From positions 25,143,702 through 25,207,701 of the forward strand of contig NC_091219.1 of assembly GCF_040958095.1 (NCBI RefSeq): DNA of 64,000 nt. The letters are read 5' to 3'. The notes beneath the pieces are model-generated. The model worked only from the letters and a program-made list of their open reading frames with translations, was not told the DNA's origin and searched no databases. This document shows positions 7,708 through 63,805 of this stretch, one piece after another. Each line of letters opens with the position of its first letter. Position 1 is the first letter of the stretch. Both the position numbers and the translations under genes were made by a program. The DNA comes from Procambarus clarkii (taxonomy: Eukaryota; Arthropoda; Malacostraca; Decapoda; Cambaridae).

Positions 7708-8386
7708 CTGCGCTCAAAACTTTGGTGAAACTGACCGTACACTTAATGACAGACTTAAGGAACACAAAAGAAGCGTTAAGTCTGCAGACACAAACAATGC
7801 TCTCTGTCATGTTAGGGATTCTAATCATCCTATTGATTGGTCTTCCTCCAAAATAATCTTTCCTCCCTCTACTCTACACAGACGCCGTCATGTTGAATCA
7901 GCTCTAATACACAACAGTACCCAACATGAACTCGAGTCCTGGCTTTGTTGCTGTTGACTCTTCCCTTTCACAGTATATACTCAAATGCTCTAAACTTTCT
8001 AACAAACTTGACCTAATCATAAGCTTACCGTTTATCTTTCTTTTTGTTTCTTTTTTTTTTCTCTTACGATCCCTGTCTTATTCCTATCCTCTTTATTTCA
8101 CCTTACCTTTCGTATCTTTTGCCTTGCTTTTTCTTTATCCAAGATTTCCTTCTCACCTTTCTCTTGCCTATTTATTGCCTTTGCTTCCTTCCCTCATCTT
8201 ACGGGATATTCATGCCCGTGCCACCTCTTGGGTGGCTTAATCCTTATAAATCTTCCCTCATCACAATCGACTTGAGAATGGTCCAGGATGGACCTAATCG
8301 TCGTCGTCCCTTCACTTTCTAGTGTGTGGTCTGGTCAACATATTTCAGCCACGTTATTGTGACTCCTCGTCTGCACTCAAAACTTT
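7708..8386 (+). mobile_element. Penelope-like element fragment with ~16-bp target duplication
   Basis: The first ~240 bp read in frame as GETDRTLNDRLKEHKRSV, then CHVRDSNHPIDW and RRRHVESALI, the GIY-YIG endonuclease region of Penelope-like elements. It starts inside that domain, so it is 5'-truncated. A 3' region follows and ends in the GGTCC...GGACC hairpin tail and CAGCCACGTTATTGTGACTC. The insert (7724-8370, ~647 bp) is flanked by CTGCGCTCAAAACTTT (7708-7723) and CTGCACTCAAAACTTT (8371-8386). Unit B keeps the unfilled site near 22993-23010. Broken; young relative to the A/B duplication. Confidence 0.85.
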
Positions 8387-8594
8387 ACAGTATAAAGCAA
8401 ATGGCGCAGACAAGGCCAAGATACAGCTGAAGGAATACAGACAGCTTGTTACAGAAGGTTCTAGATATAAATCCTAGAATCTAATTGTGTCTAAGCGCTG
8501 TCCACTCAACCACGAGGCCCCTCTCGCGTGTGCAAAAAATATAAAAAGAGAGAGAGAACTATTTCTTAAAAGTGGGCGTTAAAAAAAAAACACT
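8387..8594. other. 3' flank of Kazal gene 1 with SINE remnant
   Basis: Tracks 23010-23100 of unit B. At 8491-8525 a fragment (AGCGCTGTCCACTCAACC) of the minus-strand SINE seen more fully at 23602-23780 remains, followed by a poly-A tract at 8581-8590. Confidence 0.55.
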
Positions 8595-13399: not shown

Positions 13400-13552
13400 A
13401 CCATGTCGTAGCTCAATCGATTAAGGCAGCGTCTGGGATGCTCTCGGGCGCAGGTTCGAATCCTCGTCACGACCTTTGTGGATTTGTTCATTTGATAGGG
13501 GGTCCACGACGGACCGAAACGTCGTCACATAAGGGTCCACGACGGGTAGAAA
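13400..13552 (+). mobile_element. SINE with tRNA head joined to a Penelope-type tail
   Basis: TAGCTCAATCGA (A box, 13409-13420) and GGTTCGAATCC (B box, 13453-13463) form a tRNA-like head. After TTTGTGGATTTGTTCA comes GGTCCACGACGGACCGAAAC, the hairpin core that ends the Penelope-like copy at 8275-8300, then a second 33-bp copy of it. A related head with a clipped tail is at 24711-24806. The chimera is seen directly; its mobilisation is inferred. Confidence 0.7.
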
Positions 13553-13654
13553 CGTGACTTTCATTTCACTTCATGTGTTAGGCTTGGGTTCCGTTATGGT
13601 GACTTATTCTCCGATAACATTACACAGGTTGTTAAGGAAAACAATAGTACGAGG

Positions 13655-15112: not shown

Positions 15113-18100
15113 ATGGGTTCCCTGGCCTTCACCTCCGCCCTCCTCCTGCTGCTGGTGGCTTGTGGCCCTCTAGTGTCCGCTAAACGTAAGTTATCGGAAA
15201 TTTGTCGTTTGTTCATTCTAACGCTTAATATACCTGCAGCTTCTTTGTTAGTGAGTTTGTTTGCGTCGTGTTGCGTACTGCGTGATATGCTAGTTTACAT
15301 TTAGAAGACAAATATTGGTTCTGAAACTGCTTCTCTGTAAATTGTGTTCATCAATCTCATTCTAAGCTTTATTAGTATTGTTATATATTAGTGATAGTGT
15401 TAATTTATTATGTTAGTCTTTATTATATAAAATTAAGCAGCAAATTGTATTACTGCAGATAAAATTAGATTTTATCACTCTTGTATCATAAGTATTAAAC
15501 TGTTTTATGGTATTATTTATTTTGTGATGAACTCAGTGTATTATACTCTGCTCAATCGTCCTGGATAAAACTACTTTATAACTGAGAAAATCAGGTGACA
15601 TGAGAAGGATTCGAACGTGCACAGTAGGTACTCCCAAGAACACGTCTTAAGACCAACAAGGCGTGTGCTTAGGAGTATACGCAGCTTGTGCGGGTTCGAA
15701 TCCTGCCCCCCCAATGGTTCCTGCTGCTTTTCTCCTCGATACATCACGGTAATCTGATTTCTTTGTGCACTTAAGTTCATTGTTTTAAATTTTTATTTCG
15801 GGAATTATGCTTATATAACATTGTAATAGTTATTATAAGCGTATAAATATTTTATACTAGAGGGGGGAGTGATACCCGGCGTTGCTCGGATGAGGGAGGC
15901 CACATCTACACTACACACGGTCTTCGTCACTGTAACCATCTACACTACACACGGTCTTCGTCACTGTAACCATCTACACTACACACGGTCTTCGTCACTG
16001 TAACCATCTACACTACACACGGTCTTCGTCACTGTAACATCTACACTACACACAGCCTTCGTCACTGTAACCATCTACACTACACACGCCCTTCATCACT
16101 GTAACCATCTACACTACACACGCCCTTCATCACTGTAACATCTACACTACACACGCCCTTCATCACTGTAACATCTACACTACACACAGCCTTCGTCACT
16201 GTAACCATCTACACTACACACGGCCTTTATCGCTGAAATGCCCATCTTTTAATCACTACAATACTACTTACCACGCTGTAACCACTTTAACTACATACAA
16301 CCTTCAACGGTGAAACTATCTCCAATACCCTGGTACAGCCGGGAGCCCTATCTACACCACCTCCCTTCTCCTTCACCACTTTCCCTCTTCTACTCCACGT
16401 TCCCACTCAATCATCCACTTTCCCTTCATCACTGTAACCATCTTAACTAAATACTATCTTCATCAATAAACCACCTAAGGCAAACTATTATTTCATCATA
16501 TTCTGGACGAATCTTAGTGACGATGGAATCTGGTTATTTAGTGAGGTTGGTATCGAGGAAGGAATGGAGGTCAACCTTGATTCCCATCACCTATGATAAT
16601 CCCCTTACAACCACCAGTTACCCTGCAAAGTTTGATGAGGCAGCCTAGCCCCAAACTTCTGGCCTATCGCGAACGGATAAATAAACATTTTTTTTTTTAA
16701 CTTCATATCGTTAAATGTGGAACTACACAAGTCACTATAATAGAACCGACTTCACTTTCCGGGGGTTAAGACGTCACTAATACAACCGACTCCACTTTCC
16801 GGGGGTTAAGACGTCACTAATACAACCGACTCCACTTTCCGGGGGTTAAGACGTCACTAATACAACCGACTCCACTTTCCGGGGTTAAGACGTCACTAAT
16901 ACAACCAACTTTCCTTTCCAGGACTAAGGCTTGTGTGCCCGGAAGTGTGCACAGCTAACTACGCCCCGGTGTGTGGTACTGACGGGCAGACTTACAGCAA
17001 CGCCTGTCGACTGGAAATCAAAGCCTGCAAGAACCCTCAACTCAAACTCAAAGTCGCTTATGAAGGACGTTGTCGTGAGTTCTCTTCTTCGTCAAATTGT
17101 ATCCATTCATTTTTATTTCTATTTATATATTTATCTTCTCTCTCTCTTTGTGTATTGCACAAATTTGTCTGCTATAAATTTACGTCATTTTGAGGTTATC
17201 GTAATTTATTTCTTGTATTGAGACTCTCAAAGAGACTATTAGCAGGGTCCGTTTTGTTTAAAATGTATTTGTGTACGTTCGTATTTAGATAAAATATTTA
17301 AAAAAAATTATCAATTTGAATATTGTTATAAGTGTTTTTTTCATATTTGTTTTAAATACGTTAGACAGTTGTTAAAATTTGAATATATTGGTAAAATTAG
17401 ATTCCTAAATTACTTACGGCCCAACACACATCAGCCCCGCTCCTGTGCCAGGTGAGTCCACTACGGGCTCTCCATAGCCCGTGCTACTTACAACTTTTTG
17501 TTCTCAGTAGCTGAATCTTAAACAACAACATACGGCCCAAAGTAAACTTGTCAATAATATAAACATTCTAAATAAGTCAAATATTTATGAATACGAAATA
17601 TAATATTCGCGTAATGACCAGGTTCTCATAGATCTGCCATTACCCTTGCAATAATAGCCCAGGTTGAGTTACCCAAAGAGAAAACACAAATATAAAGGGG
17701 CAATAACACAAAGTAATGATCTCTTCCAATATGCTCTCGTAATCTTGCGTATGTAACAGAACACTAGTTTATTACAGAACCTTATCGCTATAACACACGG
17801 TTCCTTCACGTTAAGAGAGAGAATCACAGCTAAAAAAGTAAAGAGGCACACCCAGCAGGACGCGGTCCCACGGGGCTACGGTGTATAGCGTACCAAAATG
17901 ATTCTAACTGAATACACTCGCCATAACTCTTTGCCACTGGCAGACACAAGGAAAATTGACTGATGACCGAATCACACCCTAGAAGATGAAGAGACGACGA
18001 CGTTTCGGTCCGTCCTGGATCATTATCAAGTCGTGTGTGTTCAGGACGGACCGAAACGTCGTCATTTCTTCATCTTCTGATGTGTGGTTTGGTTATATCT

Positions 18101-20364
18101 TCAGCTACGTTATTGTGACTTATCTTCCGTAATAAACTGGTATATAGCGGTATACTTACAACACACGTCAGGCGAAACGCGAACGAAACACAGTAGCATC
18201 TTGTCACCGAACTGTAAAATATTAAAATACACAACAATATATCAGAAATCATTGAAAGAGAATGTACAATAACACATGAAAATTATAGGTCACCAAAACA
18301 CTAATAATCACTGTTATATAACTGGTTCACTGACCAGTTATATAACATTTTAAGACCTAGTATGTCTAAAATAATCTAGTCTACCCTGAGACTGCAAATT
18401 AACACTAAGTACAAATCGACCCCTTGGTTAGAGAGTCTTGTAATTTCTGTAAAGTTTACCATAAATATATATATCCCGTTTTCTTTGGATAAATTTTAAC
18501 ATTTTATTTCCCATTTTCTTTTAATAGTTCATCTTAAATAATTTCTTTCTCTCTTTCCCTCTAGTTATAAGTATTTAGGTATATCGGTTATTATGCCATT
18601 CGCAGACCTAAATGTTGGTGCTCGTCTCTGATAAATTAAAAATTGTCTGCTCTTCACGATTTATTAATTATAGTATATTAATTTATTATAATACAAGTAC
18701 TGTATTGAGTATTTGTTTCCAGGAGGCTTTTTTTTTTGTTACATAAAAGTTGTTACATTCTTGTACAACATTCTTGTACATTCTAACATGTTGTCCTTTC
18801 ATACTTACGCTCTGACCTCTTTTGTTTCTTCTGGTTTGTTATAGACTACTCTATCCCTTTTTCAATTTCAAGTATGTTTATTGAGGCGTTGAGTCACAAT
18901 AACGTGGCTGAGATATGTTGACCAATTCACACACTAGAAAATGAAGGGACGACGACGTTTCGGTCCGTCCTCGACCATTCTCAAGTCGATTGTGGACTTG
19001 TGGTCGATTGTGGGTCGTGGACAAGACGGACCGAAACGTCGTCGTCCCTTCATTTTCTAGTGTGGAGTGGTCAACATATGTTTATTGAGACAAATATGTT
19101 TATTGAGATTCCCCCCCCCCCCTCCAACAATCCTTTGTTTCTGGCTACGTCTCTCCCTGGGGATTGGTGGTCAGGTCCCAAAAGTTGGCGAACAGCCTCC
19201 CTCCGCTGCCCTTAGCCAGTCTGTTGCTGAGAAAGGCTCTGACCAGCCGAAACGCTCAACATTCACCTTTCCCATTTATCTATGGTTTTCCCGCATATAT
19301 ATTATATATTCTGTATATAACATCTTGTTGAACCTGCAACGACTGCTAGTAGGATTATCGCACATCATTGTCTCTGTGCTACAAGTGACTTCGTTTTTCA
19401 GGTCCAGCAAAACAATGTTTGGATGCCTGCCCATTTAACTACGACCCTGTGTGTGGCACAGACGGGAAGACTTACAGTAACGCCTGTATCCTGGGGATCG
19501 AAGCCTGCAAGTTCCCTCACCTCAATCTCAAAGTTGATTACGATGGAGAATGTCGTAAGTTCTAAACCTCGTCACCTTGAGTCCATATTTTCTATTGGTG
19601 TATCTATTTTCTGAGTGAAATTATTTTTCAGTTATAATTTTGTTGTCTTCACTCCCCGGAGACACGCACTATCTTCTTAATTATCTTTATCTTTTGAGAA
19701 AAATACCTTTACCAAGGAGTAACTGTCCCAGCCTGTACTTAAGGGAAAGTGATTATACCGGACGCAACTCTCTCTGGTTAATCACCTTGAATATTTAGCG
19801 ACATATTTGTGTTGCTCTAAAGGTTCCAAAAATATTTTAGTGCAGCTCAGTTTTCGTGTCAGTACTAGTGGAGACAAGTTCAAAAATGAAGAATGGAGAA
19901 AAATTCTCAAAATTCTCAAAAATAGAGAATGCGTACAGACAAGGGGTTACAAAGTTAATCCTTATGAAAGGAGATTAAGAAAGCTTCACTACATTCCCAA
20001 AGAGAAACAAAGACTAGGGGTGACAAGATTATAAGATGTAAATAGGTGGAAGTGAATGACAAAGAGGATATAGAAAAAGTTTATATAAATATAATGGTAT
20101 TATTGAGGCAAGACGTTGGTAAATACTAGTTTGCGTAATATAATGAACCATCCCAAATCGCTGGATTGTTTCAAGGTTAGACATACATGAAAGAATTTGG
20201 AAGGATATCAAGAGGGACAACTTCGTATGGGCTAATAGGTGTTCTACAGTTTTCTTTATGGCAAAAATATGTTCAGTCTAATGTTAGGCTATTCCAAAAT
20301 CTAAGATAACATAATAAAAATATTCACATGGATTTAAACTATTGTCTTCGAACTTTCAGGTTAG
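15113..20364 (+). CDS. Kazal gene 2: secreted two-domain serine protease inhibitor
   Basis: Predicted 127 aa. Exons: 15113-15185 (MGSLAFTSALLLLLVACGPL then VSAK, phase 1), 16922-17074 (domain 1, 153 nt), 19402-19554 (domain 2, 153 nt), 20360-20364 (GT completes Arg, then TAG). The 5' UTR part of exon 2 starts at 15076. Acceptors TTTCCAG, TTTTTCAG and CTTTCAG; donors C|GTAAGT and C|GTGAGT. Domain 1: CPEVC, loop TANYAPV, CGTDGQTYSNAC, IKAC, EGRC; predicted P1 Ala. Domain 2: CLDAC, loop PFNYDPV, CGTDGKTYSNAC, IEAC, DGEC; predicted P1 Phe, pointing to a chymotrypsin-like target. Signal cleavage probably after VSA. All introns are phase 1, so domains can be gained or lost as whole exons. Confidence 0.92.
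15186..16742 (+). other. Intron 2 of gene 2: tRNA-box palindrome and 34-bp minisatellite
   Basis: At 15607-15703 a near-palindrome starts GGATTCGAAC and ends GTTCGAATCC, so it has B-box words on both strands; gene 4 has it at 31566-31665. At 15902-16225 about ten 34-bp units (CATCTACACTACACACGGTC) lie in tandem; gene 4 keeps two to three. Confidence 0.75.
16743..16921 (+). repeat. 40-bp tandem repeat made of mutated splice-acceptor copies
   Basis: About four units of 40 bp (GGGGGTTAAG recurs at 16761, 16801 and 16841). Each resembles the real acceptor region but reads CTTTCCGG where the functional one at 16915-16921 reads CTTTCCAG. Gene 5 has a single copy with AG at 40181-40209. Confidence 0.8.
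17434..17530 (+). repeat. Retroposon tail in intron 3 of gene 2
   Basis: TAGCCCGTGCTACTTACAAC then GTAGCTGAATCTTAAACAAC, the tail seen at 4280-4350 and 27810-27890. Confidence 0.6.
17985..18140 (+). mobile_element. Penelope-tail foldback in gene 2 intron 3
   Basis: Two Penelope-type 3' tails in opposite orientation (ACGACGACGTTTCGGTCCGT and ACGGACCGAAACGTCGTC) make a long hairpin. It ends in CAGCTACGTTATTGTGAC like the copy at 8346-8365. Confidence 0.7.
18873..19089 (+). mobile_element. Penelope-tail foldback with 13-bp target duplication
   Basis: Insert 18886-19076 (191 bp) flanked by TATGTTTATTGAG at 18873-18885 and 19077-19089. The arms carry GACGACGACGTTTCGGTCCG and its complement. The paralogous stretch of gene 4 is replaced by a different Penelope-tail insertion and a deletion. 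Confidence 0.75.
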
Positions 20365-20584
20365 ATTCAGGCCAGCAACTGGAGAAGACTTCCAGAGATC
20401 GTCCTGCCATTTCCGGCAGTGATCGGAGAAGACTTACAGATTTACCACCATTGTGAAAGCTTTGGCCACAACGCCTCAGTAGCCGTCCACCACCTCATCT
20501 AGGCACCGGCACTCTCTGCAACGCCAGTAGCACCGCTCTGTGTACCACTTTGTCATCTGTACCACTATTTTGATTCTCATTAAT

Positions 20585-20620
20585 TATGTTAATAAAACTG
20601 GAATACTGAGCATTATTTAA
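20585..20620 (+). terminator. Poly(A) signal of Kazal gene 2
   Basis: AATAAA at 20591-20596 in GTTAATAAAACTGGAATACT, a context kept at 34187 and 42072. The 3' UTR is about 250 nt and starts directly after the TAG. Confidence 0.85.
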
Positions 20621-21740
20621 CTGTGTCCTAACCATGTCTTTTGCGTTGTTGGTGTTTTTACTCTATCTCGGTTTTGCTTTAATATCTAGTCATGTGTTTG
20701 ACCGCGCTCCTCGGCTAGTACTCTGATCATATGGTTAGTTAACTATTCACTAGCTTGTCTAGGGATGTATGATGGATATTAGCTTTGCTGGTAAAGCCCA
20801 GGGAAATCCCTACAGAAGGGTAGAAACATCTAGGTCGAGTGACATAAATAAAACATATATTTACAAATAAATAACGTAACAGGGAATATTATTTAGGATA
20901 AAACTTCCCCTACTCTTCATGTACCTTAACATCTATATAATAATAATCACCAATATGTTTTACCATTCACTGATAGCATAAGCAATATTTCAAACCTAAA
21001 TACTTTAATATGATAATTGTATGTTGAAGGAAAACCCACACATGCAATAATATTTACCAGACACACATGGATATACTAGGAAGCCTGGACTCTTTATGTA
21101 TCCCTACTTTTCTCCGCAGCTTCTCAACCTACTCTAGGGTCCCCACCAACTTGAATAAATACGAAATTGTGGTTTATCTGGACATCTGGCAGTGTAACCC
21201 TTAAAATTCACGATCGTCAGTTAACGTTTTTAGGAGATGCAGGTTCAAGGCTGTGAAAGTCCTAGACTATGATGGTCCTAGGCTGTAAAGGTCTCGGGAA
21301 CTACATAACGGAAACCAGGACAATGAGAGGATTCCTTACTCTGTGTAAGACATTTTGTTTTGTCCTTAGGAAGTAAGTGCTATTTGCTTATTACTTAGGG
21401 CTATAGTACAGAAAATGGTTATTATTCCCCCTCTAACACTGCTCTGACCCTTGTCTTAAGCCAGCTTAGGGAAGATGTCTTGAAGGTTACTTTAACGCTG
21501 CCGACTCCTTCTCTAGAGCTGTGACAAACCTTGACAAACTGTATACTGTAGAGAGAAGAGGTGCGTGAGGGAGATTGTGCCATAATTTATAACTTTGCCT
21601 ATTGAGATCCAAGACTTCGTATTGCTTATAAATATGCAAGTCTCATTGTAGAAACAGAGAATAATAAATATTGTAAAAATAATTTTGAGGTAATAGTGAC
21701 TTTAACTGGCGTTCTGGTGATTCCTAGCCACCTGTTACCA
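20621..21740. other. Right part and edge of duplication unit A
   Basis: Co-linear with 34210-34815 of unit B up to GGACATCTGGCAG (~21180-21195 against 34780-34793), where homology stops. No gene is seen after that. Confidence 0.55.
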
Positions 21741-21805
21741 CCACTATCCTTAACTCCTTGTCTGGCTGTCCGTGGGGACAATTGTGTCGCTGTGTGCTCC
21801 AGTGT

Positions 21806-21872
21806 TCGATGGTTCGTACTCACCTAATTGTGCTTGCGGGGGTTGAGCTTTGGCTCTTTGGTCCCGCCTCGA
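21806..21872 (+). mobile_element. SINE fragment
   Basis: ACCTAATTGTGCTTGCGGGG and TTTGGTCCCGCCTC resemble a SINE body widespread in decapods as I recall it. The match is from memory, without a search. Confidence 0.4.
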
Positions 21873-21899
21873 AGAGTGTAACCAAAACACTCCACCAAA

Positions 21900-22172
21900 C
21901 ACTGAGAGTGTTTGTTGGTGGGCGCTGTTGGGGGCCGTGCTGGCCAGTGGTATGGGGGTGCCTTTGTCCCTGTAAAGCGGAAGGATACAATTGGCCTGGA
22001 ATTCACCGGACATACGTCTTACCCAGCAGATAAAGTAGTGCTGTTGGACCTTTTGCGATTGGATGTGTCGGTGGTGTGTAGTGTACAGATTGTTGCAAGT
22101 CACCGGGCGGTGGTGAAGTTCGGTTCCATGACTGTCTACCAGGGCTTTGTGGATCGTTATGATGGGTGACTC
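21900..22172 (+). mobile_element. Retroelement ORF1-like fragment
   Basis: An 85-codon open frame (21912-22169) with KDTIGLEFTG and SHRAVVKFGSMTVY segments ends in FVDRYDG. It has no start context or neighbouring exons and looks like a piece of a transposon structural ORF rather than a host gene. Family unknown. Confidence 0.3.
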
Positions 22173-22190
22173 TTCACGCTACCTGCAGGC

Positions 22191-22571
22191 AGCCCGTCCT
22201 CCAAACAAAGATCCAAAAGTGATTCCATCCACCCGCCAAACCCCCTGTTTATGAATGAAAAGCGGTTTACACATGACTCACAACTGCTGCGTTCGAACAT
22301 ATTCGGAACAAGTGCTTCACTGACGAATTTTGTTCGAATCACAACGCTGTAAATGCTTCACCCACGTACTACAAATACAAATAATCGCCAGCAGAACCTA
22401 AACACCTAACCTAACCTAACCTATGCCTATTTATACACAATATGCTAATACATTATAATATTAATTTATACTTGAGAAAATTCCCGTTTTCAATGAACAG
22501 CATGTTAAAATATATGAATGCGTCTGTGGGGTTGACCGCTGAATGTAATGGACTTGAGTCGAGGACGGATT
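22191..22571 (+). mobile_element. MITE, copy 3
   Basis: AGCCCGTCCTCC to GAGGACGGATT, same family. It holds the longest CCTAACCTAACCTAACC run (22406-22424). An internal piece (AATACAAATAATCGCCAGCA) is repeated just beyond its right end at about 22573-22601, which points to a nested or aborted rearrangement. Confidence 0.85.
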
Positions 22572-22601
22572 GAATACAAATAATCGCCAGCAGAACCTAA
22601 A

Positions 22602-23600
22602 GTTATTATCACACACGACTAGGATGGTCTAGGATGGACTGAGAAGTCTTCGGCGTTTCTTAAGTAGCCTGGTGTAACCATGGCATATAAAAATTGTATG
22701 GTATAAACGGTGGAAAGTGGCACTTCAGCAGTGTGTAGTCTCATCACCTTAGGACTCCAAAAGTCAAATATAATCAAGTCATGGCCTTCCCCCCCCCCCC
22801 TCACTCTACACCCAAGACATTTCTACCCCTTAGTCTACACGTCAGTTATACCCCCTCCCTCCCTCCCCCTACACCTCAGTCACATCTCCCTTACTCTAGA
22901 CTGTCTGTAAAATGTAAATTATGTTAATTTATCTTCACAGAGTTCATAATTCACAGAAGTAACTTTGCCGTGTATATGGTACAGGAGTTTACACTGCACT
23001 CAAATCTTTACAGCATAAACCAAGTGGCTCCAGACAAGGCCAAGATACAGCTGAAGGAATACAGTACAGCTTGTTACAGAAGGTTCTAACTATAAACATC
23101 CTTGAATCGAATTATGAATAAATTTACGAATAATTTGATCGGTATCAGATCATCTCGACTTACTGACGCTTTTCACAATCAGATTTAATAATGTCGTGAG
23201 AGTTTATGTGATGTCTGATTTATTTTCCTAGTTTTAGATTCTTACACATTAGCGCTCGAGGGAACACTGGAAGTTACGACTAATGATTTCCTGTTGTCGG
23301 GGGACAGGAAGCCTGTTTGGTTTGTCGTGGTCCTGGGTGAACAGAGGCATCATCTCGCCCGGGAACCGTAATGACCATTCAGTTGTGAGCCAACTGTGTA
23401 GACCACTACGCTACCGTTAATTAATAACAGGTTACTATAGCTCCTCGAGAGTAGAACCGAACTGTGATACGCGGACATTCAGCGTAAGTAAAGGAATTCA
23501 CAATTACAAATATCTAGATAACTGTGCAGGTGCTTTCAGGGTGGGTGTGGCTTATTGTGGTAATGGATATGTCTACTACATATATTTCTAACACACATAT
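22602..23600. other. Left part of duplication unit B, 3' flank of gene 3
   Basis: Low-complexity C tract at 22789-22800. From about 22836 it follows unit A and keeps the empty Penelope site (ACACTGCACTCAAATCTTTA, ~22991). 23100-23580 shows no gene. Confidence 0.55.
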
Positions 23601-23601
23601 C

Positions 23602-23780
23602 CCCAGGAAGCAGCCCTTGGTAGCTGTCTAACTCCCAGGTATCTATTTACTGCTAGGTGAATAGGGGCGCCAGGCTGAAAGAAATTCTGCCCATTTGTTT
23701 CTACCTCTGCCGGGGATGGAAGCCGGACCCTTAGGACTAAGACCCCAGAGCGCTGTCCATTCAGCCACGAGGCCCCTCTC
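23602..23780 (-). mobile_element. tRNA-derived SINE
   Basis: On minus: CCTCGTGGCTGAATGGACAG (A-box region), CCGGCTTCCATCCCCGG (B-box/T-arm region), then AACAAATGGGCAGAATTTCT and GGGCTGCTTCCTGGGG. The last two words are also in the SINE at 47733-47957. Unit A keeps only its head end (8491-8525). Confidence 0.7.
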
Positions 23781-23844
23781 GCGTGTGCAAAAAATAGAGA
23801 GAACTATTTCTTAAAAGTGGGCATTAACAAAAAACTAATATATC

Positions 23845-23862
23845 TATACCTACTTTATTGAC
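23845..23862 (-). terminator. Poly(A) signal of Kazal gene 3
   Basis: AATAAA on minus at 23859-23854, about 165 nt after the stop. Confidence 0.75.
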
Positions 23863-24024
23863 AAATGTAAGTGAGGAACCACTAAGTTATTATTAGTAAA
23901 GTGCGTGGTAGAGAGAGCGTCCATCAGGACGTGCGAGCTGGTGGGGGCGACCTGGACCTGGAGCCACAACACTCCAAAAGTGTTCTTCATTCGTCTGGAG
24001 TAAGTCGGAGTCCTTGGCTGGCAT

Positions 24025-26413
24025 CTAACCTGAAGTAATAGAGAACAATATCTTAATTTTAAGAGAATACCGATTATATATAAAATTATATTACCGGGGT
24101 TGTAGTAGAGGCAGAGACGTCCTGAAGGCAAACAATCATGGATTGTTGACTGGTTTCAAGAATAGATTGGACAGGAAGATGAGATAGAGAGAGAGAGAGA
24201 GCGAGAGAGAGAAAGTATATATGTGGGCCCCGCCAAACATGAGGCACCAGACCTGCTCCGGTGTAACCTAATTATCATGTTGTTGAACCCTTGAACCAAC
24301 GTAGTGATGACGTAACTCTGGTGACAGTGGGTTCAGTAGTCGTCACGTACAGTAACGTCTAGCGAGAGCTGTTTGGCTTACTGGTCGTTACCTTCATTGA
24401 GATCATGTCTCACTTGGTCGATCTTATCAAACTGTCTTAACTTAAAGACAGAATTGGAATTAATATGAGCAGGCATTTAAGAGTTTCGCAAAGGATAAAA
24501 ATGAGAAACTAGTAAACTATTGACCCGACAACATAATAACACAAATGAAGTTTGTAAGAAAGAAAATTAATTGGAAATATGTCATAAAGTGAAAGCCTTC
24601 TTCGCTGCTCAACAAGACGAATTCGGCACGAACCAAATTTTCCGGAGTTGTCGAGGGCTTAAGACTGTGGCACCAACACTTAAGACAGAACAGCTCACTT
24701 GTCAACTTGTACCATGTCGTGGTACAGTTGACTAAGTCGCATCTGGGAACATCCCATGCGTAGGTTCGAACCCTCATCACGCCCTTTGTGGATTTGCTCA
24801 CTTGTTAAGACGTCAGTCTTTAAGACAATTACTTGATGATGAACCTAAGTTCCCTGACTAACGGTTCTTATGTATATTCATTTATAAGAAAGTATTACTA
24901 TAGTTAAAAAGTTGATTAGTATTATCATTAGTATTTATTATAAACATTAATTACATTGATTATATCCTTACGGTTGTATTATGTTTGTAATTATGTATTA
25001 ACTTTCGGGTTCTAATATATGAATGGGGGACGATCTTACTAATAGCGAAGAAAAACGTTCATTAGTGATACTTATTACTCCAATTTCGTCTAAATTCTTT
25101 ATTAAGTCTTTGGAAAACTTTCCGCCAAAGTCATTTACTGATAACAAATTGAAACAGATCACATTGAAATACTCACTACAAGAGCCGTCGTGTAGCTTCT
25201 TGATGCTCCAGTTGCTGTTGCAAGAAGCAATACTCAAGTAGCAGTCGTTGTCGTACGTCACGCCGTCAGAGCCACAGACCGGATGGTAAATTTCCCGGCA
25301 CCCTTGGGGACATCTGGACGTGCCCGCCGCCGCTGTAGGGGCTGGGGGGAGGGGGGGGAACAGTGTACATGTGGGCACCGAAAACAAAAAATCATCCATA
25401 AATATAATTCCTAACAATGGAAAATAACTTTACTTTTCACCAAAACTCATTTAAGTAAAGCTAACTGTGAACTTCTCGTGCGCAGAAGAACATTATCACG
25501 TCCCATGATGAACACGAGAGACTCATTACTCACCCAAGATGTCTCGTGCATTTATAAAAAAAAAATGGGGTAATCAAGACACACACCCATGAGCGCAAAA
25601 AGTTACTGATTTGAACTATTGGTAGTCTAAAGGCGGAGCTTAATTAAGAGCAGATGCTCAACCTTCCAGGTACAAACTGGTGAACCAACCCGTTCTCGCA
25701 CTTTCGTATAGTCAATATTGACTTATTAAATATGTGCATATGTGACATACTAAACATACTAGTTTACCTTGAAAAGCTTCATAGAAAACACCGACCTTAC
25801 CTAACCTTCTAAGTATGTTAAGATAAGCATCTTATTGCTTCGTAATTACAATTATTACTTAACCTATACCTATAATAGGTTAAGTAATAATTGTAATTAT
25901 TAATTGTAATAATAATGTAATTATTATAGGTATAACCTATACCTATAATAGGTTAAGTAATAATTGTAATTACGAAGCAATAAGATGCTTATCTTAACAT
26001 ACTAAGAAGGTTAGGTAAGGTCGGTGTTTTCTATGAAGCTTTTCAAGGTAAACTAGTATGTTTAGTATGTCACATATGCACGTATTTAATAAGTCAATAT
26101 TGACTGTAATAAAGTGTGAGAACGGGTTGTGTGAACACACACACACATACAAACACATATAGTGAGAACATAACTAGGTGAGCATATATGAAGTGATTTA
26201 AGAAGTAGATATGACAGCGCAATATGCTCCGGAACCTATATACCAGTAGATTACAGAGTTTAGAGTCAGGAACTCAATTACCCGCAAGTACAAATAAGTA
26301 AGTAAAACTAGGTTACCATACGCGCATAACTAACGTGACAGAACAAGCCACAATAACTTACAAGCCACAAGCACCAGCAGCAGGAGGGCGGAGGTGAAGG
26401 TCAGGGAACCCAT
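24025..26413 (-). CDS. Kazal gene 3: secreted single-domain inhibitor, duplicate of gene 1
   Basis: Predicted 70 aa. Exons on minus: 26413-26362 (MGSLTFTSALLLLVLVA), 25332-25177 (Kazal, 156 nt), 24029-24025 (GT then TAG). Exon 2 begins at 26450 with the common GTTGTGTTCTGCC. Domain: CPQGC, loop REIYHPV, CGSDGVTYDNDC, YLSIASC, DGSC; predicted P1 Glu as in gene 1. Differences from gene 1 include Arg-Ala to His-Pro in the loop (which restores the usual PVCG), Arg to Ser and Ala to Ser. The second residue is Gly, as in the plus-strand genes, where gene 1 has Arg. It is head-to-head with gene 4. Confidence 0.9.
24711..24806 (+). mobile_element. tRNA-headed SINE fragment in gene 3 last intron
   Basis: ACCATGTCGTGGTACAGTTG and B box GGTTCGAACCC (24763-24773), then TTTGTGGATTTGCTCACTTG, as in the SINE at 13400. 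A minus-strand head of the same kind is at 40500-40575. Absent at the same place in gene 1. Confidence 0.6.
25686..26129. mobile_element. 444-bp foldback DNA element in gene 3 intron
   Basis: Almost the whole insert is an inverted repeat: it begins CAACCCGTTCTCGCACTTT and ends with the complement AAAGTGTGAGAACGGGTTG, with arms of about 190 bp (shared inner words AGATAAGCATCTTATTGCTT and GACATACTAAACATACTAGT). Flanks GGTGAAC and TGTGAAC suggest a 6-7-bp target duplication. Gene 1 has the empty site (ACTGGTGAACACAAACAC, ~10327). No transposase. Superfamily not assigned. Confidence 0.85.
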
Positions 26414-26495
26414 CGTTGTCACAAGTCTTCACAAGGTGGCAGAACACAACCTTGGGAGAGAAAAGTAAGACATTGTGGTCATTGTTGACCCCCGC

Positions 26496-26626
26496 TGTTG
26501 CTGCCACGACCTGAGACCCTTACCCATGTTTGGTTCAGTGTCTACCACAACCACCATTACTGCTACCACGACCTGAGACCCTTACCCATGTTTGGTGGAG
26601 TGTCTACCACCATTACTGCTGCAGCT
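26496..26626 (-). repeat. 62-bp minisatellite in 5' UTR intron of gene 3, about 2 copies
   Basis: Same unit and orientation relative to the gene as at gene 1, but much shorter. Confidence 0.9.
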
Positions 26627-26644
26627 ACCACTACCAGTATCGTC

Positions 26645-27262
26645 TTAACAGGTAAAACCATGCGTTTTTGAAAAACAGCGCCATCTGATGCACATAATAG
26701 CAACATTCACGCTATACTAAATATGTCACGAATTCCATTTCAATGTTTCCGATTGCATTGATAAATTTTATTTTCATAGATTTCGATTACTTTCTTTTTA
26801 TTGAATTATTTTGTGTGACATTGTGTTGGAATTGAGCTGTGTTGTTTACCATACCGTTCATTTCGTGAGTATAGTTTATTTTTTTATTTTTTCATATTTT
26901 CATTTCATTTTTTAACTGTTTTTCTTATATTTCAGTGATGGGAACATCAAATCACTTGATGTTCCCAATTTTCTGATGGGGAACATCAGACCATTTGGGA
27001 AGGCATCGGATGAGGGAGTGGGGAATGGTGGGGATGACGAGGGGACAAGGGAGGGGGAAGGATGAGGGGACGGGGGAGTTTGGGATGGTGGGGACGAGGG
27101 GATGGGGGAATGGAGAATGGTGGGGAGGACAAAGGGACAGGGGAGTGGAGCATGGTGGGAAGGAAGAGAGGATGGTGGGGAAAGGACGAGGGGAATGGTT
27201 GGGAAGCCGAGGAGACGGGTGAGGACTGGGTGACAGGGAAGGTTGCTGTAGCCGGGTACTGC
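26645..27262. repeat. Unit B-specific interspersed repeat with purine-rich block
   Basis: Unit A lacks this stretch between the minisatellite and the SINE. It starts near GTAAAACCATGCG, holds a G/A-rich degenerate repeat (GGGATGGTGGGGACGAGG units, 26995-27235), and ends AGCCGGGTACTGCTAGTAA, resembling the complement of TACTAGAGG...TACCCGGCGTT at 15855-15885. Pro/Ser-rich minus frames here are compositional. Confidence 0.55.
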
Positions 27263-27269
27263 TAGTAAT

Positions 27270-27506
27270 AATATAAACATATTTACTTTGGGCTTGTATC
27301 GAGGTCCACCGCCCAAGGTCGAATTGCTGACCCTTCCCACGATACAAACCCGCGACAGTTGACTAACTGTCGGGTAGCTGTTTATATCGAGGTGAACAAA
27401 CGCGTTAGGTGATAATAAACGTGTCCAACCATTTTCATCGTGCCCTAAAATCGAATCCAGGATTCCCCATTGTGAGTCGAGAACGAAGCCAACTGTACTG
27501 CGAGAC
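27270..27506 (-). mobile_element. tRNA-derived SINE in intron 1 of gene 3
   Basis: Paralogous copy of the insertion at 11505-11742, with only scattered differences. Confidence 0.65.
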
Positions 27507-27586
27507 CCTTAATGTTTAAACCCAAATGCAAGTTGGGGCCTCCTAGGCTTGAGGACTACAGCATTATCACAAAATTAAGTTCTCAC

Positions 27587-27655
27587 CTTTTTTTCTCATC
27601 CAGTTGTGGCAGGACTGACGCTGGGTAGCTGATTGCCCGCCTTTTATACCCACTT
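27587..27655 (-). promoter_or_regulatory. Core promoter and non-coding exon 1 of Kazal gene 3
   Basis: TATAAAAGG on minus at 27648-27640, TCAGT with A at 27616, donor AAAAG|GTGAG at 27587. Same layout as gene 1. Confidence 0.75.
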
Positions 27656-27796
27656 CTGATGCTGGGTTGAACCGCCTCTGAAAACTTTCCTAGAATAACA
27701 GGTTTACATGATATTTTCCCGCGCAGTTCAGAGAGAACTAGCGCGCATGTGTGTGTGTGTGCTCACCTGAATGTGACGTCAGCTACAGCCCCGCTC

Positions 27797-28150
27797 CTGT
27801 GCCAGGTAAGTTCACTACGGGCTCACCATACCCTGTGCTACTTGGAACGTTTTGTTCCCAGTAGCTGAATCTAAAACAACAACAACCCGAATGTGCTGAC
27901 AGAGACAAGCTGGGCTCCTAGGCCTGCCTTCCGTACACTCTTATATCAAATTGTGTATTAATTAAGTTAGCTACAGTGACTTCTTCATTTTACCTAATCT
28001 TCTGATTGACGTCTCTTAATACTGTAAAAGAGTCCTTCTGTCATCTGTATCTCTAGTTTGCACCTATGACCAGGTACATAGCTTATGCAGTTCCCAGCTT
28101 TAAATAACGTTTCTTTATCTACTTTATCAGGTTCCCCTTATATCAGTTCA
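27797..28150 (+). mobile_element. Retroposon insertion in the gene 3/gene 4 intergenic region
   Basis: Unit A runs straight from CAGCCCCGCTCC to ACTAACTCGCTCC (~12250-12275); B has about 350 extra bp here, with the tail ACTACGGGCTCACCATACCC and GTAGCTGAATC then AAAACAACAACAA. No coding sequence left. Confidence 0.55.
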
Positions 28151-28768
28151 GTCCACTTTCTCGCTCCACCCATACTCAAGATGTTTATTTTGATATAGAT
28201 ATATGTATATGTATGTAGCTGATGTTGATATGTGTGTGACTCTCACGTGTGACTCTCTTCTTGTCTCTATTATTTGTTGACTTTGTCAATGTCTAAGTGT
28301 TTTCTATGTCGTATTTATATCCTTGGGAATCTCCACTTCTTTAAGTATCAACTGTTATCTATGTGCTATATATAAGAAGGACCCACATATATAGATGTAC
28401 AATGTCTCTCCTCTAGAAACACTGCACATCTTAAGCCATCACGTCATATGCATCAAGCTCAGCTGTTTGTTTCACCACATTTCTTCGTGATAAGTGTTTA
28501 AGAGTGAACACTGTAACATTTAGCAGCTTCTTCTTCGTAGACCTGATGATATACGTAAAGGTATCTAGCAATTGCAGGTTAACCGTTACGGATCAACAGA
28601 TTTATTTTAAAGCTAATTTTATTCAGCTTTTGTCATATGTCTTGGAAGCATCAAGAAACAGAGAACAGAGCTGTCATGTAGTGTTGTTGTACTGATTATA
28701 TTATCTTACAGCACAAACAGGATGGGCCCAAGGATTTTCTATTGAGAAACTCACTTATTATAATAATA

Positions 28769-28815
<47 letters not shown>

Positions 28816-29290
28816 TTTAATGAAAAAATATGTATGTTTATCATTGGTTGTTTCACTACTCCCATCTGATATATCCGCTCTCAGTGTTAACTTCTTCTAC
28901 AGGAAGATCACTTCAGCCAGTGAGTACCGCCCCTAACACGCCCCTGAGCCCTCAGTCAAGCACTGTATGTAAGGCCTTAGGATTGTCATGGATTATGCAG
29001 TCAACCTGTACTTAACTCTTTCCGCTTCATCTCTCTCACTCTATCAGTTTTTCCACACCCAGCATCCATGATGTGAGATTCAGTCTTGAGTAAGTATTCC
29101 CAGCATGGAACCCCAACTTGGAGAAACTCAACATGCACCAATACCAGTTCCTGAGCCGAAGGGATTAAGTTAAGTGGAAAGACTGAAGGAACTGGCTCTC
29201 ATAACATTTAATGAAAGAATGAGCGTGAGAGACATGCTAGCATTATAATAATCCAACCCTCACGTAATATACCAAATGATCGCCACGTGA
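28151..29290. other. Rest of gene 3/gene 4 intergenic region
   Basis: Conserved with 12280-13330. Includes an (AAT)n microsatellite at 28758-28815, only about 20 bp long in unit A. No supported gene. Confidence 0.6.
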
Positions 29291-29299
29291 CGATTTGAT

Positions 29300-29530
29300 A
29301 AGGGTCCACGACGGACCGAAACGTCGTCACATAAGGGTCCACGACGGACCGAAACGTCGTCACATAAGGGTCCACGACGGACCGAAACGTCGTCACATAA
29401 GGGTCCACAACGAGCCAAAACGTCATCACATAAGGTATCAACGACGGACTGAAACGTCGTCATATAAGGGTCCACGACGGACCGAAACTTCGTCATATTA
29501 GGGTCCACGACGGGCCGAAATATCGCTTTC
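29300..29530 (+). repeat. 33-bp minisatellite built from the Penelope-tail hairpin
   Basis: About seven units of AAGGGTCCACGACGGACC followed by GAAACGTCGTCACAT; the start word recurs at 29300 and 29333. Unit A has two (13496-13552). Each unit contains the GGTCC/GGACC stem and GAAAC. Confidence 0.9.
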
Positions 29531-29609
29531 ATATCACGTCATATGTTAGGATTGGGTTATAGGTTTCAGTTCCGTCATGGTGACTTATTCTCTGATAACA
29601 AGGGGGACC

Positions 29610-29850
29610 GAGACACAGACGAAGACAAGAGAGACACAGACTGAAACATGAGACACAGACTGAAACAAGAGACACAGACTGAAACAAGAGACACAGACTG
29701 AAACATGAGACACAGACTGAAACAAGAGTCACAGACTGAAACAAGAGACACAGACTGAAACATGAGACACAGACTGAAACAAGAGACACAGACTGAAACA
29801 AGAGACACAGACTGAAACAAGAGACACAGACTGAAACAAAGAAACACAGA
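29610..29850 (+). repeat. 19-bp minisatellite, about 12 copies
   Basis: Units GAGACACAGACTGAAACAA with TGA/AGA variants. The long minus-strand LFQSVSLVSVC frames come from this array. Confidence 0.92.
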
Positions 29851-29904
29851 TGAATAACAAAGATAACACAAAATTTCCCCAAAAAACTCGTAAATAATTC
29901 CCAA

Positions 29905-30035
29905 TTTTGGCGGGGACAGAAAGCCTGTATAGTTAGGCTTTTGGAAATAAAGTAAACCACTAGTGAGTCGTAAGGCGGGGATCAAGAGCTGACGTTCGAT
30001 CCCGTAGACACACACATTTAGGATAATACACAAGC
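29905..30035 (+). repeat. Retroposon-like element, unit B copy
   Basis: Matches 13770-13905; has GACGTTCGATCCCGTAGACA. Confidence 0.5.
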
Positions 30036-30169
30036 GCCTCGCTACAGGGGCCGGCTTCTGGGGGACTTTCTCTCGCTTCTCTCACTCTAGGAAAAGTTTC
30101 AGAAGCTGCTTTTAAGAGTAAAAAACTCCCCCATGTAATCCTTATGTAACAAAATATTGAATGAATTTT

Positions 30170-30432
30170 AAGGAAGTTCTGAAATCTGATGATGGTACAG
30201 CATGTCTTCTAGATGCATATACACTTAAAGAGTTTACTTTAGTCCTAGACAACGTTCATATATAGTATTGCTGATTGGTCAATAAACCAGTGTGGTTAAT
30301 AGGTCTTAATTCCAGTACAAAATCCTATAAGTGTTAGTTTGAACGTCTGGCAGCCCCGCATCTGGGGAGGGTATAAAAGGCGTGAGAGCCACAGCCACAC
30401 TGTCAGTCCCGCCGCCACAGTAGGAGTTACAG
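30170..30432 (+). promoter_or_regulatory. Promoter and non-coding exon 1 of Kazal gene 4
   Basis: TATAAAAG 30372-30379, TCAGT with A at 30405, exon 1 30405-30432, donor ACAG|GTAAG. Upstream inverted CCAAT and the conserved block are as in gene 2. Confidence 0.75.
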
Positions 30433-30704
30433 GTAAGAAGTTTAGTTTGTGGACATTTAGAATCTACTTTGATAATGATGGAGTCTTCAAGCCTTTCATG
30501 CCCCCTACTTGCATTTACGTTTAAACATTAACTAACGATAAAATTAACAAACACCAGACCCCGATTTTAATCTTGGTTCTCATTATAGATAATAATGTGT
30601 CCAGCTATATACACAGTAACTGGTCCGGAGTAGTGGTGATGGCAGTATTAGTGATGATGGTTGTGGTGGCAGCAGAAGTGATGGTACCTAAGAATACATG
30701 TCTC

Positions 30705-30985
30705 TAAGAGTCTCAGGTCGTGGCTGCAGTAATGGTGGTTGTGGTAGACACTCCACCAGACATGGGTAAGGGTCTCAGGTCGTGGTAGCAGTAATGGTAG
30801 TTGAGGTAGACACTACCAAACATGCCACTAAGGGTCTCAGGTCGTGGTAGCAGTAATGGTGGTTGTGGTAGACACTCCACCAAACATGGGTAAGAGTCTC
30901 AGGTCGTGGTAGCAGTAATGGTGGTTGTGGTAGACACTCCACCAAACATGGGTAAGGGCCTCAGGTCGTGGCAGCAACAGCGGGG
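30705..30985 (+). repeat. 62-bp minisatellite in 5' UTR intron of gene 4, about 4 copies
   Basis: Same unit and orientation as gene 2, fewer copies. Confidence 0.93.
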
Positions 30986-31061
30986 GTCAACAATGACCAC
31001 AATGTCTTACTTTTCTCTCCCAAGGTTGTGTTCTGCCACCTTGTGAAGACTTGTGACAACG

Positions 31062-33751
31062 ATGGGTTCCCTGACCTTCACCTCCGCCCTCCTGCTGCTG
31101 CTGGTGGCTTGTGGCCCTCTAGTGTCCGCTAAACGTAAGTTTATCTGGAGTTTGTGGTTTGTTCATTCTAACGCTTAATATACCTGCAGCTTCTTTGTTA
31201 CACAGTTTGTTTGCGTCGTCTAGCGTACTGCGTGTCATGTTAGTTTAAATTTAGAAGAAGAATATTGGTTCTGGAACAGTTTGTTTGTTAATTGTGTTTA
31301 TCAATCTCATTCTAAGCTGTTTTTTAGGATTGTTATATACTAGTGATAGTGTTAATTTATTATGTTAGTCTTTATTATATAATATTAAGCAGCAAATTGT
31401 ATTTCTGTAGATAAAATTAGGCTTTATCACAACCATATCATATAAGTATTAACCTGTTTTATGGTATCATTTGTTTTGTGTGATGAACTCAGTGTATTAT
31501 ACTCTGCTCAATCGTCCTGGATAAAACTACTTTATAACTGAGAAAATCAGTAGGTGACATGAGAAGGATTCGAACGTGCACAGTAGGTACTCCCAAGCAC
31601 ACGTCTTAATAAGACCACCAAGGCGTGTGCTTGTGAGTATACACAGCTTGTGCGGGTTCGAATCCTTTCCCCCCAAATGGTTCCAGCTGATTTTATAATT
31701 AATACATCACGATAATCTGGATTTATTTGTGCACTTAAATTCATTGTTTTTAATTATTTCGGGAATTATGCTTATATAACAATGTAATATTTATTACAAG
31801 CATAAATATTTTATACTAGAGGGGGAGGGATACCCGGCGTTACTCGGGTGACGGAGGCCGCATCTACACTACACATGGCCTTCACCACTGTAACATCTAC
31901 ACTACACACGCCCTTCATCACTGTAACCATCTACACTACACGCGAGATAGAGTAGCTTAGGCTGCAGACGAGGAGTCACAATAACGTGGCTGAAATATTT
32001 GTTATTTCAAATATATGAAACGTAGTCGTCTCTTCACTTTCTAGTGTGTAGCTTAGGCTATCTCTACCCACCTCTGCCAACTATCCCTGGTTGCTGGCTA
32101 CATCTCTCCCTGGGGATGGGTGGTCAGGTCCCAGACGTTGGCCTCCAGCCTCCCTCTGCTGCCCCTTAGCCAGTCTGTTGCTGAGAAAGGCGCTGACCAG
32201 CCGAAACGCTCAACATTCACCTTTCCCATTTATCTATGGTTTTCCCGCATATATATATTATATATTCTGTATATAACATCTTGTTGAACCTGCAAACGAC
32301 TGCTAGTAGGATCATCGCACATCATTGTCTCTGTGCTACAAGTGACTTCATTTTTCAGGCCCAGCAAATCAATGCTCGGATGTCTGCATACTTAACTACG
32401 ACCCTGTGTGTGGCACAGACGGGACGACTTACCCTAACGCCTGTGCCCTGGGGATCGAAGCCTGCAATTTCCCTGAGCTCAATATCAAAGTTGATTACGA
32501 TGGAGAATGTCGTAAGTTCTAAACTTCGTCACCTTGAGTCCATATTTTCTATTGGTGTGTTTTTTTCTGAGTGAAATTATTTTTTATTTATAATTGTGTT
32601 GTCTTCATTCCCCGGAGACACGCACTACCTTCTTAATTATCTTAATCCTTTGAGAAAAATACCTTTACCAAGGAGTAACTGTCCCAGCCTGTACTTAAGG
32701 TAAAGTGATTATACCGGACGCAACTCTCTCTGGTTAAACACCTTGAATATTTAGCGACATATTTGTGTTGCTCTAAAGGTTCCAAAAATATTTTAGACAC
32801 AGAAATTACCGGTATCAGCTGAACATTGTTCAGTTTGCGAAATATAAATACAGAAAAGATCTGTGTCAAGAATAGTAGGGATCTAAGGCTCAAAAAAATG
32901 TTGGGAAAATGCTTGGAATAAAGGCGATAGGAGATTAGTGTACACAAACAAAGAGTTTACATTAGTCCTGGACTATGTTCAAGACTAAAGTACACTTGCT
33001 GCTTGGTCACATACCTTGCGATGATTTCGGGGCTCAACGTCCCCGCGGCCCGGTCCCCGACCAGGCCACCTTATTGCTGAACTGGTCAACCAGGCTGTTG
33101 GATCGCAGATAGACGTATGAGTCACAGCCTGGTTGATCAGGTATCAAAGACGGTAGATATTGTTCTTCAGCTTTATCTCGACAATGTTGGGGCCGGAATA
33201 GACTGTGCAGCTCAGTTTTGGTCTCAGTATTAGTGGAGACAAGTTCACTGGAATGCGTACAGACAAGGATTACAAAGTTAATCCTTATGAATGGAGATTA
33301 AGAAAGCTTCACTACATTGACAGAGTAGGATGTATCTTATTATCTTATCTATGTAACATGTATCTTATTGTATTTTTATCTTAAAAATAATAAAATTTAC
33401 ATTAAAATATGTAAATAGGTGGACGTGTATAAAAAAGAGGATATACAAAAAGTATATATAAATTTAATGGTATTATTAAGGCAAGACGTTAGTATATACT
33501 AGTTTGGGTAACATAATGGACCAGCCTAAATCGATGGATTGTTTCAAGTGCAAATTAGACATACACGAAAGAGTTTGGAAGGATATAAAGAGGGACTGCA
33601 TCGTATGGGCTAATAGGTGTTCTAAAGTTTTCTTTATGGCAAGAATATATGTTTATATAGTCTCATGTTAGGCTATTCAAAAATCTAAGATAACAAAGTA
33701 ACAAAAATATGCACATGGACTTAAACTATTGCCTTCTAACTTTCAGGTTAG
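31062..33751 (+). CDS. Kazal gene 4: secreted inhibitor reduced to one domain
   Basis: Predicted 76 aa. Exons: 31062-31134 (MGSLTFTSALLLLLVACGPL then VSAK), 32359-32511 (Kazal, 153 nt), 33747-33751 (Arg completed, TAG); exon 2 starts at 31025. Domain: CSDVC, loop ILNYDPV, CGTDGTTYPNAC, LGIEAC, DGEC; predicted P1 Leu. Its flanking intron sequence matches domain 2 of gene 2. The stretch that holds domain 1 in gene 2 (about 16230-18870) is missing and the gap is marked by a Penelope-tail insertion (31964-32048). Phase 1-1 exons make the loss frame-neutral. Splice sites and poly(A) signal are intact, so it looks functional. Confidence 0.9.
31566..31665 (+). repeat. tRNA-box near-palindrome in gene 4 intron
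   Basis: Copy of 15607-15703 with B-box words GGATTCGAAC and GTTCGAATCC at its ends. Confidence 0.6.
31953..32059 (+). mobile_element. Penelope-tail insertion with 11-bp target duplication
   Basis: Insert 31964-32048 (85 bp; GCAGACGAGGAGTCACAATA to TTTCTAGTGTG) between TAGCTTAGGCT at 31953-31963 and 32049-32059. Independent of the gene 2 insertion at 18886. Confidence 0.75.
32945..33005 (+). repeat. Displaced copy of the Kazal promoter block
   Basis: AGAGTTTACATTAGTCCTGG and ATGTTCAAGACTAAAGTA match the conserved block upstream of gene 2 (14090-14130) but sit in the last intron of gene 4 with no TATA box after them. Confidence 0.6.
33023..33145 (-). mobile_element. LINE tail fragment in gene 4 intron
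   Basis: Minus copy of the GC-rich tail of 775-920 (CGTCCCCGCGGCCCGGTC, CTGGTCAACCAGGCTGTTGG). Absent from gene 2. Confidence 0.6.
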
Positions 33752-33846
33752 ATTCAGGCCAGCAGCTGGAGAAGACTTCCAGAGATCGTCCTGCCATTTC
33801 CGGCAGTGATCGGAGAAGACTTACAGATTTACCACCACTGTGAAAG

Positions 33847-34070
33847 CTTTGGCCACAAGCAGGCGATGAGTCACAATAACGTGGCTTAAGTATGTTGACC
33901 AGACCACACACACTAGAAGGTGAAGGGACGACGACGTTTCGGTCCGTCCTGGACCATTCTCAAGTCGATTGAGTATGGTCTCACAATCGACTTGAGAATG
34001 GTCCAGGACGGACCGAAATGTCGTCGTCCCTTCACCTTTTAGTGTGTGGTCTGGTCAACTTTGGCCACAA
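33847..34070 (+). mobile_element. Penelope-tail foldback in 3' UTR of gene 4, 12-bp target duplication
   Basis: Insert 33859-34058 (200 bp) flanked by CTTTGGCCACAA on both sides (33847-33858 and 34059-34070). Gene 2 has one CTTTGGCCACAA (20460-20471), the empty site. Inner arms of about 75 bp are nearly perfect complements (GGTGAAGGGACGACGACG and its partner), so the mature 3' UTR should fold into a long hairpin. Confidence 0.85.
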
Positions 34071-34180
34071 CACCTCAGTAGCCGTCCACCTCACCTCGAC
34101 GCCGGCACGCTGTGCAACGCCAGTAACTCCATTCTCTGTACCACTTTGTAAACTGTACTACTATTTTGATTCTCATTAAG

Positions 34181-41881: not shown

Positions 41882-42065
41882 AGACTTCGTGAGATCGTCC
41901 TGCCATTTCCGGCAGTGATCGGAGAAGACTTATAGATTTACCACCACTGTGAAAGCTTTGGTCTCGTCACCTCAGTAGCCATCCACCTCACCTCGGCGCT
42001 GGCACGCTGTGTACCACATTGTAAACCACGTTGTAAACTGTACTACTAATCTGAGTCTCATTAAA

Positions 42066-58228: not shown

Positions 58229-63805
<5,577 letters not shown>

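Follow-up and report, generated by a model that had tools for sequence, protein, structure and literature searches.

Among described Penelope-like retroelements, those of the rotifer Adineta vaga and of Anolis come closest to the insertions considered here. In the A. vaga report, an inverted pseudo-long terminal repeat (pLTR) lies at one end of the element, an optional 31-bp extension occurs on one inverted pLTR, and in one copy the inverted pLTR falls 37 bp short of full length; named copies have 8–10-bp duplications, inverted junctions are palindromic, pLTRs surround captured DNA, and self-priming on an antisense template is favored (PMC3846280). For the Anolis PAc protein, it is reported that in vitro it cuts and extends both strands at AT-rich targets and that two adjacent reverse-transcription start sites delimit the tail (PMC11167929). 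Here, foldback insertions made of two Penelope 3' tails were analyzed in a 64,000-nt stretch of Procambarus clarkii contig NC_091219.1 (the window) and across the 4.03-Gb genome. We consider a full foldback to be probably the product of a single two-ended integration by Penelope machinery, a reading drawn from sequence comparison.

Read in the sense of the element, the tail has its inner boundary near TCACAATCG, and its outer end is either short, at GGTCAAC, or extended, at CTGC, 35 nt beyond; a foldback is two such tails placed head to head. In foldback e3 (33859–34058, plus strand), the 35-nt extension forms one outer end (33859–33893, minus strand, where the Penelope 3' end lies) and is followed by the arm bearing it (33894–33970, minus strand), a 14-nt center at the junction (33971–33984, no strand), and a second arm which ends at the short 3' end (33985–34058, plus strand). 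The next base, 34059, is common with the exact 12-bp target duplication CTTTGGCCACAA (33847–33858 and 34059–34070). Foldback e1 (18886–19076, plus strand) consists of an inverted extended tail and then a short tail between exact 13-bp copies of TATGTTTATTGAG (18873–18885 and 19077–19089), while e2 (31964–32048, plus strand) holds the extension piece and part of one arm only, between exact 12-bp copies of GTAGCTTAGGCT (31952–31963 and 32048–32059). Base 32048 is ambiguous between e2 and its duplication, of which a preliminary description of this DNA had listed 11 of the 12 bases. That description held that tail pairs insert with their own 11–13-bp duplications and that two of the three insertions are hairpins; exact duplications of 12–13 bp flank all three, and e1 and e3 are head-to-head pairs, e2 being fragmentary. 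The empty site of e3 which it reported is present in two paralogous genes of the window, clean in one (20460–20471, plus strand) and diverged in the other (41956–41967, plus strand). For e1 and e2, no empty site was found within the window. A third copy of TATGTTTATTGAG is seen at 19091–19107, 18 bp downstream of the right-hand e1 duplication, so the e1 target may have held a repeat beforehand.

The tail is the Penelope 3' end. In a 5'-truncated window copy with body (7724–8374, plus strand), it follows a GIY-YIG-like remnant, recognized by eye, and a 3' untranslated region (3'UTR); this tail, at 8262–8374, carries the extension, and the copy is flanked by a duplication with one mismatch at about 7712–7723 and 8375–8386. 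Genomic body copies agree, with the tail at the scorable 3' end of 22 of 30 loci and no scorable 3' end in the remaining 8. Pfam searches of three body open reading frames (ORFs) gave GIY-YIG in all three (E 3e-4 to 7e-3) and RVT_1 in one (E 5e-4), in each case below the Pfam cut-offs. The window Penelope ORF and four other fragments had no Pfam match, solved-structure and NCBIfam searches gave nothing relevant to the Penelope ORFs, and the outside collections viral_contigs and genome_contigs gave no match. The optional 30–40-bp tail extension of Penelope-derived insertions has its counterpart in the 35 nt at one end, and the duplications agree with what is expected of such insertions, about 8–15 bp at AT-rich sites.

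Every genomic search scored the best 40 candidates only, so that all sets represent the closest relatives of their query, and candidate counts are not copy numbers. The e3 query had 1565 first-look candidates; the best 40 were nearly full length with 91–100% identity, and the 39 loci besides e3 were fetched. For e1, 20 of the best 40 of 2282 candidates were fetched, the best other match having 87% identity. Ten loci with the commonest center or a shorter form of it, and 14 and 20 loci from two arms-only queries, brought the total to 103. Six pairs among these, L157 and L125 included, resemble segmental duplicates, which leaves about 97 independent loci; L014, a duplicate of L011, was excluded from the arm-distance, center-versus-arm, shared-variant, and position-55 analyses.

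Duplications scoring at least 9 flank 30 of 40 units (e3 and its 39 relatives) compared with 0/400 mismatched flank pairs, and scores of at least 8 were reached in 79/103 loci compared with 1/299 mismatched pairs. They were found in 16 of the 20 fetched e1 relatives and in 17 of the 20 loci fetched with the L114-arms query. Chance as the source of the flanking duplications is excluded genome-wide. Their length is 11–16 bp in 40/46 cases, the longest calls taking in element bases or an AT repeat (L108, L115), and they are 67% AT overall.

The outer ends follow a rule, with exceptions outside the arms-only sets. To avoid selecting for the extension, the two arms-only queries were made without it. 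The e3-arms query returned 39 loci apart from e3 (25 fetched earlier and 14 new), all of which have one extended and one short end. The L114-arms query returned 40 loci, seven of which, including the query, had been fetched earlier; 20 of the 33 others were fetched (13 were not), and again all 20 have one end of each kind. Allowing for segmental duplicates (three pairs among the e3-arms loci, two among the L114-arms loci), the 59/59 loci correspond to about 54 independent ones. Within the window, e1, e3, and two older foldbacks on the minus strand (17961–18125 and 58048–58223) have the same arrangement. Of the 30 Penelope body copies, 9 have an extended 3' end and 13 a short one, with 8 unresolved; once copies with the same flanks are merged, about 8 are extended and 8 short, so each site alone is used about equally.

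One explanation would be that ordinary 5'-truncated copies lie beside unrelated inverted copies, or that the foldbacks are DNA transposons resembling miniature inverted-repeat transposable elements (MITEs). The arms are inverted, and 5'-truncated body copies without an inverted arm but with a duplication do exist (L078, L079, L087, and L097; in two of these the duplication has one mismatch). For e3, the clean empty site already refutes such an origin, and in 79/103 loci a duplication encloses both tails as a single event. A MITE should have symmetric inverted repeats and a duplication of fixed length; here, the ends are unequal in 59/59 arms-only loci and the duplication varies in length, unlike in transposons with inverted terminal repeats. 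We regard this explanation as very improbable. Random 5' truncation lacking a recurrent left end, named in the preliminary description as the case that would overturn its proposal, was not seen, as both outer ends recur. Together, the pair's own duplication, the recurrent ends on both sides, and the absence of reverse transcriptase (RT) or GIY-YIG sequence indicate that the tail pair is not a random 5' truncation.

The arm junctions behave differently from the ends. Seventy-five distinct centers occur among the 103 loci, with 31 of 39 distinct in the e3 set and 19 in the 20 fetched loci of the e1 set. Arm similarity was not accompanied by matching center similarity (r -0.276, e3 set), a negative value which perhaps arises in part from the selection of best overall matches. 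The filler-like center of L033 had a single exact match, L033 itself, in the best 40 of 469 candidates. A 72-nt query with the commonest center gave 5 exact and 6 nearly full-length matches of 97–99% in the best 40 of 484 candidates, and this center or its shorter form, the ten additional loci included, is present in both orientations relative to the extension and with several arm subfamilies. Two centers recur, in 9 and 8 of 103 loci, and their recurrence is only partly explained; the GTGAGAATGGTCTCAC center, both orientations merged, accounts for 9/103, partly because ten loci were fetched for it. To the eye, many centers appear to be built from words of the arms, as by end joining and local copying.

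These centers bear on the proposal in the preliminary description that the pair is a mobile unit similar to a short interspersed nuclear element (SINE). In such a case, the whole foldback would be transcribed as one hairpin RNA, copied by the Penelope protein, and have outer ends of its own. Recurrent ends, the constant extended/short polarity, subfamily markers which mostly agree between the arms, and the recurrence of some centers such as GTGAGAATGGTCTCAC would all fit. Copying from one RNA would, however, carry the central loop from copy to copy, and most centers are private despite nearly identical arms, including the filler-like one of L033. The commonest center occurs in both orientations and with different subfamilies, and the 5' end of the RNA would have to lie exactly at the short site. 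Internal sequence common by descent, as expected of a SINE, is thus mostly lacking, and on the comparison of centers whole-unit copying was set aside as the main route; we consider it quite unlikely. What stands of the proposal is the lone insertion, the recurrence of ends and duplications, and the lack of a Penelope body with RT or GIY-YIG sequence; the pair as a copied element, and with it a separate non-autonomous family, is not supported. The absence of a tRNA head agrees with the lack of a tRNA gene in the window (ARAGORN) and of an Rfam match at gathering scores, which is a weak test for a diverged head.

Foldbacks are one part of a spectrum that extends from solo tails to copies with body. 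Searches with the 8262–8374 tail and for body copies each had 30 of their best 40 loci fetched. Among the loci of the tail query are solo tails (L054/L055/L067 and L075) that begin at, or only a few bases away from, the inner boundary seen in the foldbacks, together with foldbacks whose inverted arms are cut at various points and tails with body or 3'UTR (L048, L063). In L094, an inverted extended tail with part of the 3'UTR is joined to a longer direct body which ends at the short site; the two parts stop at separate positions within the body, and the surrounding duplication measures at most 15 bp, part of which may be element sequence. The L153 copy, upstream of L104, showed no clear duplication on inspection. 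A query made of the e3 extension and its arm found an inverted partner in 23 of the best 40 loci, e3 included; judged from e3 itself, the sequence surveyed appears to reach no more than about 50 nt past each match. As the range from solo tail to full foldback, and L094, are built alike, they point to a mode of insertion rather than a separate family. In L049, about 20 bp of the inner end of the tail is repeated many times in tandem ahead of it, all inside a 12-bp duplication. Arm lineages also differ just beyond the inner boundary, by eye TCCAC versus TCTCAC (L155–L174 and L009–L047), which would fit source RNAs that vary in their 5' ends.

A two-ended integration could proceed as follows. The endonuclease would cut both target strands in a staggered break, and each 3' end would prime reverse transcription on a short tail RNA starting near the pLTR boundary. 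One complementary DNA (cDNA) would begin at the outer start site and its partner at the inner one, about 35 nt away; the two cDNAs would then meet and be joined via short matches and local copying, and gap filling would yield the target duplication. The tail RNAs would usually be of one subfamily without always being identical, and it would be these RNAs, not the foldback itself, that are inherited. We favor two-ended priming on three grounds: the second arm stops at a start site that adjoins the duplication, the arms of some copies belong to different subfamilies, and the two parts of L094 are unequal.

Several observations weigh against two-ended integration. Two foldbacks of the type found with the 8262–8374 tail (L060/L061 and L065) have extensions at both ends, the outer end of e2 is off the short site, a foldback at 45250–45388 has no extension, and 24/103 loci are without a clear duplication. 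For PAc in vitro, start sites are reported to be alike on both strands, and one end of each kind is therefore not predicted (PMC11167929). Mean arm divergence is about 2–6%, and distances are smaller between the two arms of one copy than between arms taken from separate copies (0.0249 and 0.0319, respectively, in the e3 set and 0.0361 and 0.059 in the e1 set; 0/5000 permutations in each). Six copies have a rare variant in both arms, as a self-templated second arm would also give, and L064 and L072 hold only a short inverted piece beside the center, as a snap-back would leave.

The last three observations, together with palindromes at the junction, would be accommodated by self-priming, in which the second arm arises when the first cDNA, or an antisense RNA, snaps back and serves as its own template, as proposed for the inverted ends of rotifer Penelope elements (PMC3846280). 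Against it, the second arm halts 35 nt short of the opposite end, at the short start site, and directly adjoins the target duplication. Positions 51–52 differ between the arms in 11/103 loci, some of these being single later mutations, and L119, L126, and L164 pair arms of different subfamilies. At position 55, the arms differ as C versus T in 11/38 loci and both carry T in 0/38, counts that are inflated since the e3 query is itself C/T and favors such copies. The unequal end points of the two parts of L094 also argue against self-priming. As a general explanation it appears unlikely, and for part of the copies it is possible. Distances among left arms and among right arms were uncorrelated across copies (r 0.105; 1114/5000 permutations as high).

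Position 55 had also raised the idea that the short arm is inherited as such, since in the e3 set T occurs in 17/39 short arms and 0/39 extended arms. This model was abandoned on two counts: T is found on the extended arm of L141, L146, and L148, and a C/T query favors copies of this kind.

Two-ended integration shares features with several known systems. With A. vaga Penelope elements, the foldbacks have in common inverted tails, an extension on one of them, one shorter inverted end, duplications, and junction palindromes. In the rotifer copies described, body or captured sequence lies between the pLTRs, whereas here the pair stands alone at many places, with extended and short ends in 59/59 arms-only loci and a mostly private junction (PMC3846280). 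As with PAc, two start sites would delimit the tail, both strands would be cut and extended, and targets are AT-rich; unlike the in vitro reaction, in which no strand difference is reported, the genomic footprints suggest one start site per target strand (PMC11167929). We propose, tentatively, that the Penelope ribonucleoprotein might be a two-RNA, two-strand integrase that in every two-ended event primes one strand at the outer and the other at the inner site, with inverted pLTRs as its normal footprint rather than a result of self-priming. In that case, the optional tail, known for long, would record the priming site used on each strand.

In LINE-1 twin priming, both target strands prime, which gives inverted insertions with target duplications, and the internal sites from which the second primer starts vary. 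The foldbacks differ in that their ends are fixed at two positions of the tail. The pieces of the scheme are already known; as far as we have seen in the accessible parts of the open-licence literature, where neither the rule of one end of each kind nor tail pairs as a large class was recognized, the regularity and the remade center are new. The scheme touches on Penelope insertion, the frequent inverted ends, and the optional tail; the two start sites and both-strand extension are in print without a link to inverted ends in the sections available (PMC11167929). Extended and short ends, a duplication, and a mostly new center make a simple, testable scheme with many natural products.

A hammerhead ribozyme was considered as well. 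At 33985–34035, a hammerhead-like stretch is visible by eye (a stem, GAAAY, and GTC), with ATG at the start of the stem. The usual C3-G8 pair would read U-A here. Rfam searches up to E 10 gave no hammerhead in 33840–34075 or 8180–8400, and the hammerhead or retrozyme reading was rejected on this result, the stretch seen by eye staying as a lead. Matches of foldback e3 to Rfam microRNA hairpin models, all scoring under the gathering level (best E 1.9e-12), are taken as what any long hairpin gives. The hammerhead-like stretch sits in the place published for Anolis PAc. Metazoan retrozymes are small, self-paired, and non-coding, are thought to use Penelope machinery, and have a type I hammerhead and tandem repeats (PMC7229834, PMC7761336); the foldbacks resemble them in the first four respects and differ in having no hammerhead match.

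Among the remaining Penelope-related features of the window, the older foldback at 58048–58223 is flanked by the 10-bp duplication CAATTTTCTA (58038–58047 and 58224–58233), and the one at 17961–18125 has no clear target duplication. The foldback without extension at 45250–45388 (plus strand) has one arm cut short, and no target duplication was found for it. A lone extension-like piece lies at 56276–56308 (minus strand). Tandem repeats of 33 bp at 13470–13590 and 29272–29558 hold the word GACGGACCGAAACGTCGTC in common with the Penelope tail. A 482-aa open frame at 36498–37946 (minus strand) had no Pfam match up to E 1. Finally, an inverted repeat at 25686–25867 and 25948–26129 has 182-nt arms which are 97% complementary and spaced by 80 nt.
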